Part shown: piece by piece, positions 1,967 through 37,765 of the stretch
How the letters are laid out: each line of letters opens with the position of its first letter
How positions within the stretch are numbered: position 1 is the first letter of the stretch
Assembly (NCBI GenBank): GCA_019306365.1
Contig: JAFDLS010000014.1
Span: 1-42,006, forward strand
Source: Deltaproteobacteria bacterium
GTDB lineage: Bacteria; Desulfobacterota; Desulfarculia; Adiutricales; JAFDHD01
Length of the DNA: 42,006 nucleotides
Direction: 5' to 3'
Translations under genes and position numbers: made by a program
Notes under the pieces: generated by a model
Databases searched by the model: none
Seen by the model: the letters and a program-made list of their open reading frames with translations, nothing else
Told to the model about the DNA's origin: nothing

Positions 1967-2141
1967 TGAGACCTCTGCAAAACATCGTCCTTTAGCCGAA
2001 CTCATGAGCGCCGCTTCGCTGATGCTGCAGCGGCATATGTCAGTCTCAAATTTAAGCCCTCGAAATATTAGTAATATTCCTGCGGGTTAAATTTTCGCCT
2101 TCCGCGATTTCAACAAAATTACTGGTTTTGCAGAGGTCTCA
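1967..2141. repeat. MITE-like repeat A1 (175 bp)
   Basis: A non-coding element with perfect 17-bp terminal inverted repeats: TGAGACCTCTGCAAAAC at 1967-1983 and its complement at 2125-2141. The interior contains a GC-rich palindromic patch around CTGCAGCGGCATATG and an AT-rich patch (AATATTAGTAATATT). A copy of the same length in the same orientation lies at 3200-3374 (A2), with only scattered substitutions. The right end abuts the stop codon of waaC (TAA at 2143-2145). No transposase is visible in the window. No convincing target duplication flanks this copy. Confidence 0.9.
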
Positions 2142-3168: not shown

Positions 3169-3199
3169 AAAAACGACTTCCCCTTGATGAAAGCTAGTT

Positions 3200-3374
3200 T
3201 GAGACCTCTGCAAAACTTCGTCCTTTAGCTGAACTCTTGAGCACCGCTTCGCTGACGCTGCAGCGGCGTATGTCAGGCTCAAATTTAACTCCTCGAAATA
3301 TTAATAATATTCCTGCGGGTTAAATTTTCACCTTCCGCGATTTCAACAAAATTACTGGTTTTGCAGAGGCCTCA
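3200..3374. repeat. MITE-like repeat A2 (175 bp), second copy
   Basis: Near-identical in length and order to A1 and in the same orientation. The ends are TGAGACCTCTGCAAAAC and a complement with one change (GGCCTCA in place of GGTCTCA). If the element is taken to begin at GAGACC (3201) and end at 3373, it is flanked by a 5-bp direct duplication AGTTT (3196-3200 and 3374-3378), as expected of a transposed element. It separates gmhB from waaC, two genes otherwise expected to be tightly packed. Its left end is 31 bp upstream of the waaC TTG, so any gmhB-waaC readthrough transcript must cross it. Confidence 0.9.
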
Positions 3375-3385
3375 GTTTAACCTTT

Positions 3386-28565: not shown

Positions 28566-28706
28566 ATGGAATTTCTGGCCGCGTCCGGTGTCTGTTTGGC
28601 CGTTTTGCTCGGATCGGTGGTGTATGAAACCCGCCGTATGAAAAAGGAAGAAAGGGAGACCAGAAATCTCTTGAAATCCTTGTCTAGAAGCGTGAAAAAC
28701 AACTAA
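28566..28706 (+). CDS. Small single-span membrane protein, 46 residues
   Basis: The ATG at 28566 is preceded by TTAAGGAGAAAGCCC, an excellent ribosome site. The protein begins MEFLAASGVCLAVLLGSVV, one hydrophobic helix, followed by a basic tail (YETRRMKKEERETRNLLKS) predicted to be cytoplasmic and helical. I do not recognise a family. The strong ribosome site and clean helix-plus-charged-tail design argue it is real. Repeat C1 begins directly after its stop codon. A clear promoter is not seen in the ~195 bases after the preceding terminator. Confidence 0.6.
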   Translation: MEFLAASGVCLAVLLGSVVYETRRMKKEERETRNLLKSLSRSVKNN

Positions 28707-28897
28707 AGCGTTTGTCATAAAAAAGTTCCGTTTGGCCTTGAGGCAGGAGAAGATTTAATTTCGATTTTTATCGTAAGTTACCATATGACAAACGCCAAAA
28801 CATCCTGTAACTGCGGCCTGTTACATCATGTTAGCCGCTGTTAGAGGCTTGATTTAGCTTAGAAATCATACGGAAAAAATTCTGGCAATTACTAGAA
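28707..28897. repeat. Inverted-repeat copy C1 (about 191 bp)
   Basis: Begins AGCGTTTGTCATAA and ends GGCAATTACTAGAA. A diverged reverse-complement copy (C2) lies at 31845-32036. C1 has an internal subunit, 28708-28795, bounded by perfect 11-bp inverted repeats GCGTTTGTCAT and ATGACAAACGC, then a tail rich in short dyads. The copies share the order of all segments with many substitutions, so the duplication is not recent. It abuts repeat B on its right and the 46-residue gene on its left. No coding potential seen. Confidence 0.85.
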
Positions 28898-29067
28898 GCT
28901 ATCTCAAAATTAGCGTTTTGGTCTAAATCGCGGAGAAAGAAAATTTAACCCGCAGGAATATGTTAGATATTTCGAGGACTTAATTTTGAGCCTGACATAT
29001 GCCGCTGCAGCGTGAGCGAAGCGGTGCTCATGAGTTAGGGTAAAAAAACTTTTTTGAGATGGCTTCT
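28894..29067. repeat. MITE-like repeat B: A-type core with different termini
   Basis: 174 bp. The interior (AATTTAACCCGCAGGAATAT ... CATATGCCGCTGCAGC ... AGCGAAGCGG) is the A1/A2 interior in reverse orientation. The ends, however, are AGAAGCTATCTCAAAA (28894-28909) and TTTTGAGATGGCTTCT (29052-29067), a 16-bp inverted pair with one mismatch and unlike the TGAGACCTCTGC ends of A1/A2. It fills the gap between C1 and the tlyA stop codon at 29077. Confidence 0.85.
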
Positions 29068-29076
29068 ATAACTTGT

Positions 29077-31844: not shown

Positions 31845-32036
31845 TTCTAGTAATTGCCAGAATTACGTTCCGTTTGATTACTAAGGTAAATCAAGGCTCT
31901 AACAACGGCTGACAACATATAACACAAGGCAATTACATGATGTTTTGGCGTTTGTCGTAAGGTGGCTTACGCGAATGGCCGAAATTAAACCTTCTCTCAC
32001 CCTAAGGCCAAACAGAACATATTTATGACAAACGCT
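31845..32036. repeat. Inverted-repeat copy C2 (about 192 bp)
   Basis: Reverse complement of C1 with substitutions: reading the minus strand it begins AGCGTTTGTCATAAATATG and ends CTGGCAATTACTAGAA. The inner subunit ends GCGTTTGTCAT and a one-mismatch partner (ACGACAAACGC). It fills most of the 363-bp gap between ispA and dxs; the remaining ~138 bases next to dxs (31707-31844) show no gene. Any ispA-dxs cotranscript or a dxs promoter must cross or lie in it. Confidence 0.85.
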
Positions 32037-32069
32037 CTAACTCCTCGTAATTAACAGGGTGAATTTGTT

Positions 32070-36808: not shown

Positions 36809-36847
36809 AGAAGCTATCTCAAAATTAGTGGTTTTGCAGAGGTCTCA
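36809..36847. repeat. 39-bp mini-element U1
   Basis: The left 20 bases AGAAGCTATCTCAAAATTAG equal the left end of repeat B; the right part (TGGTTTTGCAGAGGTCTCA, 36829-36847) equals the right end of A1 and A2 (with one change). It thus joins the two kinds of terminus with no core. An inverted, slightly diverged copy lies at 37728-37765 on the other side of nudC. Confidence 0.75.
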
Positions 36848-36912: not shown

Positions 36913-37728
36913 ATGCGGTTTATACCAGCCGTTGTACCGATCTCGGAAGCTAACGAACCCGAATGGTGGTTTCTTTTTCGTGAGTATAAACTCCTGGTTA
37001 AAAAGGAAGGTGAAGCCTTTTCCATACCGTACCTTGAAGACCTTGAAACCTTCAACCTGAGCCCAGTACGAACACAATATCTTGGAACGCTTGATGGCCG
37101 TCCCTGCTATTCAGGGGAGTTAGCGGACCATGCCGATCCTCCCCCTGGTATGGCTTTTCAAGGGTTACGAAGCCTGTTTGAAAGTATGGGGCCGGAGCTC
37201 TTCGGGCTGGCGGGACGGGCTTTTCAGATAGTCGATTGGGATCGGACCAACCAGTTCTGCAGCAGGTGCGGGGAACACGTGGAAACTAAAAGTGACGAGC
37301 GCGCAAAGGTCTGTCCAAAATGCGGGATGCTGAATTACCCGCGCCTTTCACCGGCAGTTATCGTGGCGGTGCTGAAAGAAAATCAAATACTCCTGGCGCG
37401 CAACGGTCGTTTCCCAAATGGATTCTACAGCGTTCTGGCAGGCTTTGTGGAGCCTGGAGAAACCTTTGAAGATTGCGTAAAACGGGAAGTTAAAGAGGAA
37501 GTCGGCCTGGAGGTTAAAAATATACGCTACTTTGGCAGTCAGCCCTGGCCCTTCCCGAACTCGGTTATGATTGGGTTTATAGCTGATTATGACAAGGGAG
37601 AAATAACCATAGATGGAAATGAGATTAAGGATGCGGGCTGGTTCCCGGCGAGCGACCTTCCTCTCATCCCGGGTAAAATAAGCATTGCCCGCCAACTGAT
37701 AGATTGGTTCCTGGAAAATTATCAATAG
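36913..37728 (+). CDS. nudC: NAD(+)/NADH diphosphatase NudC
   Basis: Hydrolyses NAD(H) to NMN(H) and AMP, and in E. coli removes NAD caps from RNA. 271 residues. An N-terminal domain (about 1-112) is followed by a zinc ribbon FCSRCGEHVETK and VCPKCGMLNYPR. The Nudix box GFVEPGETFEDCVKREVKEE then VGL (about 177-199) fits GX5EX7REUXEEXGU. SQPWPFPNSVMIGF (about 212-225) is the NudC-specific motif that separates it from other Nudix enzymes. Length matches the family (E. coli 257). A ribosome site is weak (AAAGGAATATTA). Its stop codon touches mini-element U2. Confidence 0.94.
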   Translation: MRFIPAVVPISEANEPEWWFLFREYKLLVKKEGEAFSIPYLEDLETFNLSPVRTQYLGTLDGRPCYSGELADHADPPPGMAFQGLRSLFESMGPELFGLAGRAFQIVDWDRTNQFCSRCGEHVETKSDERAKVCPKCGMLNYPRLSPAVIVAVLKENQILLARNGRFPNGFYSVLAGFVEPGETFEDCVKREVKEEVGLEVKNIRYFGSQPWPFPNSVMIGFIADYDKGEITIDGNEIKDAGWFPASDLPLIPGKISIARQLIDWFLENYQ

Positions 37729-37765
37729 AGACCTCCGCAAAACAGGTAATTTTGAGATAGCTTTT
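37728..37765. repeat. 38-bp mini-element U2, inverted copy of U1
   Basis: Reads GAGACCTCCGCAAAACAGG then TAATTTTGAGATAGCTTTT, the reverse complement of U1 with a few changes. Its first base is the last base of the nudC stop codon TAG. The rest of the gap to the CoA-ligase gene (to 37858) shows no clear promoter. Confidence 0.75.

Follow-up and report, generated by a model that had tools for sequence, protein, structure and literature searches.

A conserved hairpin core shared by small mobile elements with different terminal inverted repeats in Desulfobacterota

What is being conserved when small mobile elements share an interior and differ in their termini is the question raised by a short repeat, here called B, in the 42,006-nucleotide stretch of DNA under analysis (the window), one contig of a 3.59-Mb draft genome (G000; 383 contigs, ~91% complete). 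Non-autonomous elements of this kind (MITEs) are classed by their ends, the interior being assumed to be decayed filler and the ends to be kept by selection. The original prediction held that B carries, inverted, the core of two other repeats, A1 and A2, between different terminal inverted repeats (TIRs), and that a constant core with exchanged ends would suggest mobilization by more than one transposase, or a core that is itself the functional part. Alignment bears out the first of these points, as B matches A1 at 84.4% and A2 at 85.2% over 128 bp in inverse orientation (E ~1e-37), which rules out a chance match of low complexity, and the ends do differ, being (A)GAAGCTATCTCAAAA / GAAGCCATCTCAAAA in B and (T)GAGACCTCTGCAAAAC in the A elements. 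The predicted element is real, its proposed span of 28894-29067 shrinking to the limits in Table 1 once the target duplication is taken away. It is clear that B is a MITE with the TIR GAAGCTATCTCAAAA and a TA target duplication, and that A1 and A2 are members of another MITE family, in which the core of B is combined with the ends GAGACCTCTGCAAAAC and 5-bp duplications.

Table 1. Positions of elements A, B and U and of their parts in the window
Feature	Position	Strand	Remarks
MITE A1	1968..2140	-	A ends and A core; no intact 5-bp duplication
MITE A2	3201..3373	-	A ends and A core; AGTTT/AGTTT flanks at 3196-3200 and 3374-3378
Left TA target duplication of B	28893..28894		TA/TA at GAAGC boundary
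MITE B	28895..29066	+	mosaic BbbabB: B ends, B left arm, A-type right arm
B left TIR	28895..28909	+	GAAGCTATCTCAAAA
Conserved hairpin core in B	28928..29002	+	plus is the stable strand
Signature hairpin in B	28954..28976	+	AGGAATA-TGTTAGA-TATTTCGAG
32-bp module in B	28996..29029	+	contains the CTGCAG dyad
B right TIR	29052..29066	-	GAAGCCATCTCAAAA, read on the minus strand
Right TA target duplication of B	29067..29068
U1	36809..36847	+	core-less fusion of a B-left end with an inverted A-left end
U2	37727..37765	-	core-less fusion of an A-left end with an inverted B-left end

These elements are abundant in the genome, which on matching loci can be placed in the order of Candidatus Adiutrix, TD114a_bin5, a named member of that order, being among its relatives. 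Searches found 590 A-type ends and 177 B-type ends (up to 2 mismatches; 2 and 8 with reversed-pattern controls), together with 312 core hairpins (up to 3 mismatches; control 1). Elements were delimited in 641 kb of sampled G000 sequence, which holds 152 complete copies, short elements with a TIR at both ends, comprising 99 with two A ends (AA), 37 with two B ends (BB) and 16 hybrids. The window's B is one of ~40 full or near-full B copies in the genome, and its predicted RNA fold has an energy of -58.5 kcal/mol (z=-4.6). Directly upstream of it, at 28704-28875 (+), lies a member of a second repeat family of ~180 bp that starts with GCGTTTGTCATA, and a copy in inverse orientation lies at a distance of 3 kb, at 31868-32039 (-); within the sampled 641 kb this family accounts for 46 alignments, and one of its copies, at C41:10437, has a truncated A element inside it.

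The two kinds of ends leave different marks on their targets. TA/TA flanks, the duplication expected of Tc1/IS630-like elements, occur in 34 of the 37 BB copies, whereas a perfect 5-bp duplication is present in 39 of 99 AA copies, with 0.1 expected by chance, and in none of the BB copies (p=4e-19). Because target duplications vary with end type, more than one transposase is implied, as had been suggested, and for A and B two transposition chemistries. The simplest objection, that the B ends are point-mutation derivatives of the A ends used by the same transposase, is very improbable. The two ends do sit at the same positions and have a common pattern, GA....C.....CAAAA, and over the terminal 16 bp they are identical at 8 or 9 bases; the core, however, is identical at 62 of 74 positions, so that the ends have diverged in excess of the core (Fisher p=0.0015). 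This excess and the different duplications together disfavour slightly mutated A ends under one enzyme. Moreover, while the core of B is closest to that of the A elements of G000 (0.84), its ends are closest to a TA-type TIR of G021 (0.72/0.72, vs 0.50 to A), which belongs to a MITE that duplicates TA and comes from a different family within the order.

How the core came to lie between both kinds of ends can be read in part from the copies themselves. Typing of 142 G000 copies by diagnostic sites in four segments gave 86 pure A and 33 pure B copies, and among the others are various mosaics. Copies that combine an A end with a B end, the hybrids (BbbaaA in five copies, and others), keep TA beside the B end among those listed and nearly all have no shared duplication, and therefore fit a crossover between A and B insertions at different loci. 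In other mosaics the two ends match each other but enclose a segment of the other type (AabbaA, AaabaA in four copies, AabaaA and BbbabB), including A ends with B arms at C256:3574-3748, flanked by AATTA/AATTA, and four copies with A ends and a B right arm, one of them flanked by AATTT/AATTT. Because two of these A-ended mosaics (C256 and C197) retain perfect 5-bp duplications, it would appear that mosaics either remain capable of transposition or arose by conversion in situ. The B copy of the window is itself a mosaic, with a right arm of the A type, TTGAGCCTGACA, where 33 other B copies carry the B type, TTTCGTACGACA. In two fold-over copies (C10 and C174), the palindrome is the junction between an A left half and a B left half in inverse orientation, and U1, U2 and a third core-less copy at C125:6243-6281 look like deletion products of such a form via the common TAATTTTG; U1 and U2 had been described as both end types joined with no core, and each is indeed an A-left end with an inverted B-left end. 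The first two bases of U2 complete the stop codon TAG (37726-37728) of a NUDIX-like ORF (36913-37728), the insertion sitting exactly at the end of that reading frame. Judged by their segments, the mosaics, that of the window included, show A and B recombining through the core. The predicted exchange of ends around a constant core is thus upheld, and the route to it appears to be recombination between resident copies rather than replacement of the ends on an unchanged core.

The same core is found in many other genomes. A search with A1 against relatives found the central palindrome inside elements with different ends, and the pattern AGGAATA N3-9 TATTTCGAG has matches in 28 of 394 Desulfobacterota genomes, with up to 190 copies per genome where controls gave 0-1; matches in three of the 28 (G041, G138 and G433) look like chance occurrences in coding sequence. 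Elsewhere the elements are about 140-143 bp long, or longer with inserts, with colinear and nearly gapless cores and a length that is constant whatever the TIR class. The core is accompanied by no fewer than ten TIR classes and by duplications of four lengths (2, 4, 5 and 6 bp) across ~25 Desulfobacterota genera and in Gammaproteobacteria. Class T1 (GAGACCTTTGmAAAA) has a 5-bp duplication in 18 of 48 copies and T9 (GAAGTCATTTCATAAA) a TA duplication in 7 of 7, while numbers are small for T2 (GTGTCCATCCrkAAA; 6 bp, TANNTA, 8 of 21) and T4 (GGGTrTCTykAAAAA; 4 bp, 4 of 7). Further classes are GTGTCyGAACGAAAAC, GAGCCAGTTTCAAAAC, AAGCCTGGTTGAAAG, GGGCTCGC..AAAATAA and GATTAATGAGGATTTTTG, and another type occurs in two genomes (G115 and G143). 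One gammaproteobacterium has the hairpin in inverted-repeat elements, six copies in 1.7 Mb, and a second gammaproteobacterial draft has it with the GGGCTCGC TIR that also occurs in Desulfobacterota; these elements are well conserved in the inner hairpin only. Plasmids and phages gave no match to the core. Pattern matches in Chryseobacterium, Segetibacter, Trichodesmium and others lie in coding sequence without palindromic arms and were set aside as chance.

It is clear from these comparisons that end type and core have separate histories. A tree of 101 cores requires at least 14 changes of end type against a minimum of 5; it was built on 74 columns and has many unresolved forks, and the weight therefore rests on the changes forced by well-supported branches, at least six for T1 and at least four for T2. 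The B cores of G000 form a clade (100/96) nested within the A cores of the same genome (100/99), with the window copy basal in it. Cores with different TIRs in one genome are more alike (0.79) than cores with the same TIR in other genomes (0.74). A constant core with exchanged ends, as proposed for the window, holds far beyond it.

The enzymes that act on these ends can be approached only indirectly. The A end GAGACCTCTGCAAAA is identical at 14 of 15 bases to GAGACCTTTGCAAAA, the TIR that has been published for ISNme1, an element of the IS5 family, and A and T1 ends together match it at 14-15 of 15 (PMC4596501). The 5-bp-duplicating enzyme proposed for the A ends would probably be of the IS5 family; the B, T2, T4 and T9 ends do not match this TIR. 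Unlike ISNme1, the core elements have no transposase gene, and in the families searched no transposase gene with A/T1 ends was found. It had been asked whether either end type belongs to a complete insertion sequence, and none was found among the PF01609 and PF13358 transposases searched, four and zero respectively in G000 and those of up to 12 other genomes, flanking by A, B or other TIRs being absent throughout; with two families, a draft ~91% complete and repeats that assemble badly, this absence is weak evidence. No IS630-type transposase (PF13358) with a B TIR is present in G000, and none that matches in G001, G021 or G150, nor do the sampled contigs have paired A or B ends 600-3200 bp apart around a gene. 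A partner transposase is not kept by every MITE. One A-type element (L090:1105-1312) directly adjoins a PF01609 transposase gene, on whose far side no second A or B end occurs in the stretch examined.

The core itself is a hairpin built around AGGAATA-loop-TATTTCGAG, with the consensus AATTTTGTTCnAGnTCAAGGAAGGCGAAAATTTTAACCGCAGGAATACATTnAGTATTTCGAGGATTAAAATTTGAGCCTGACGCAG. The consensus fold of 35 diverse copies (RNAalifold) is a single long stem, interrupted by a GA/GA internal loop, a bulged A and a 3x2 internal loop and capped by a 7-bp apical hairpin, and it is far more stable on the plus strand (-22.3 kcal/mol) than on the opposite strand (-7.2). Covariation, proposed as a check on the fold, is evident: compensatory changes on both sides with the pair kept are seen in 15 of 23 core pairs, 95.1% of cells in the stem are paired vs 85.2% after shuffling, and the covariation score of 0.321 (0.132 shuffled) is reached in 0 of 500 shuffles. 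When the partner is slid by one base, pairing is halved and covariation collapses. Since the search pattern itself contains AGGAATA and TATTTCGAG, their invariance is no evidence, the stem outside them having been free to vary. Arm-to-arm correction in a palindromic mobile element could be a partial source of the covariation; it would not produce the conserved asymmetric loops or the one-strand stability. Comparison with Rfam covariance models gave no family for the core (among 28 loci, tRNAs alone exceeded the threshold, and weak matches to eukaryotic microRNAs and snoRNAs were judged to be chance), and the open-access literature yielded no relevant paper on the hairpin sequence, nor any on MITEs with a common core and different TIRs.

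Conservation does not extend to the whole of the interior that had been proposed as functional, namely an AT-rich palindrome together with a CTGCAG dyad. The folded, covarying core stands; the dyad sits in a 32-bp module (CATATGCCGCTGCAGCGTCAGCGAAGCGGTGCTCA-like) that is specific to G000 and absent from related elements in other genomes, and that occurs 0, 1, 2 or 3 times to give element lengths of 143, 175, 207 or 239. Over the 152 delimited copies this hairpin module varies like a minisatellite inside a MITE. Related elements of other genomes have other small hairpin inserts at similar places. An insert of this kind, TGAGCGCTGATGCTTCACTTCGTGT or its complement, lies in one core arm of the elements L302, L310, L311 and L314 (G376, G127 and G360), which belong to another family.

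By simple ORF calls, 2 of 138 G000 copies lie inside an ORF despite a coding density of ~82%, and copies are nearer to gene 3' ends (median 58 bp) than to 5' ends (147 bp), with 44 of 119 adjacent 3' ends and 18 of 121 adjacent 5' ends within 30 bp. Where the flanking genes are co-directional, 60 copies have the stable strand in sense and 23 in antisense orientation (p=6e-5). For A copies the ratio is 36:9 (p=7e-5), which fits selection at the level of the transcript; for B copies it is 8:11, with no sense bias, which makes orientation an uneven support for an RNA role. In other genomes it is 28:15 (p=0.07).

The explanation that probably accounts best for these observations is a MITE superfamily defined by its hairpin core, in which recombination passes the core from one end type to another and the core is kept for a function of the hairpin of one strand. 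Each copy would be moved in trans by whichever DDE transposase recognizes its TIRs, in G000 presumably one enzyme that duplicates TA for B ends and another, probably of the IS5 family, that duplicates 5 bp for A ends. Copies with different ends would recombine via the common core, through crossover, gene conversion or template switching at the palindrome, and such events would give rise to the hybrids, mosaics and fold-over copies and pass the core between end types, in a direction that can be only surmised. The core could thereby outlive the loss of any single transposase, and it may be kept as its one-strand hairpin acts, most likely as RNA in the transcripts of neighbouring genes. The core rather than the ends seems to be the part that is kept. 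On a bolder version, nearly as likely as not, the core would be a structured RNA (or single-strand DNA) module, so far undescribed, that spreads as a passenger and has time and again taken over the ends of transposons unrelated to one another; the cargo hairpin rather than the transposase would then define the lineage, which is present in at least two phyla.

Two other readings of the conserved core have to be weighed against a one-strand function. The core might be needed for transposition itself, with a cruciform or single-strand hairpin that joins the ends, or marks the element during replication, for any transposase. The element length of 141-143 bp kept whatever the TIR and a near-complete hairpin that spans the whole element would suit such a role, as would the pairing, for in DNA hairpins, too, G.T is better tolerated than A.C. 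Nonetheless, the same asymmetric internal loops would have to be needed by transposases of all four duplication lengths, and the sense bias of the A copies is not predicted, which leaves this role unlikely. Rather less likely still is homology alone, an old MITE whose functionless interior is homogenized by gene conversion while its TIRs drift after new transposases. The G000 mosaics do amount to active conversion, and the greater likeness of differently ended cores within a genome is what it would produce; conversion within genomes, however, leaves unexplained the internal loops, G.U pairs and compensatory changes found in ~25 genera and in Gammaproteobacteria, and the bias to one strand is unaccounted for.

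Contrary to the usual assumption about MITEs, an interior with covarying stems has here been kept across two phyla while the ends were replaced many times. The system lets one test whether recombination into new ends can save a non-autonomous element when its transposase dies out, and it draws attention to a hairpin with a putative function that is present hundreds of times per genome and beside gene 3' ends. Comparison with known elements is instructive. With REP and REPIN sequences the core elements have in common an intergenic location, imperfect palindromes, high copy number and one-strand asymmetry; they differ in being 141-239 bp long with TIRs and duplications, where REP and REPIN are 20-40 bp palindromes tagged GTAG or CGTC and free of target duplications, and no such tag is present in the core consensus. 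The Correia elements of Neisseria (compared in PMC4853749) are likewise MITEs with hairpin potential and TA duplications, but have one end type only, and no sequence likeness to the core came to notice. BrickBuilt/MITEPgRS of Porphyromonas gingivalis (PMC4596501) and QMITE1/2 of Coxiella (PMC5896051) are also short and transposase-free, with TIRs, target duplications, many intergenic copies and predicted stem-loop transcripts. BrickBuilt/MITEPgRS elements combine near-identical TIRs with unrelated interiors, whereas here one interior is combined with at least ten TIR classes, and in QMITE1 the ends vary while the core is conserved, all in a single species, an arrangement that in the present case extends across phyla and different duplication lengths.
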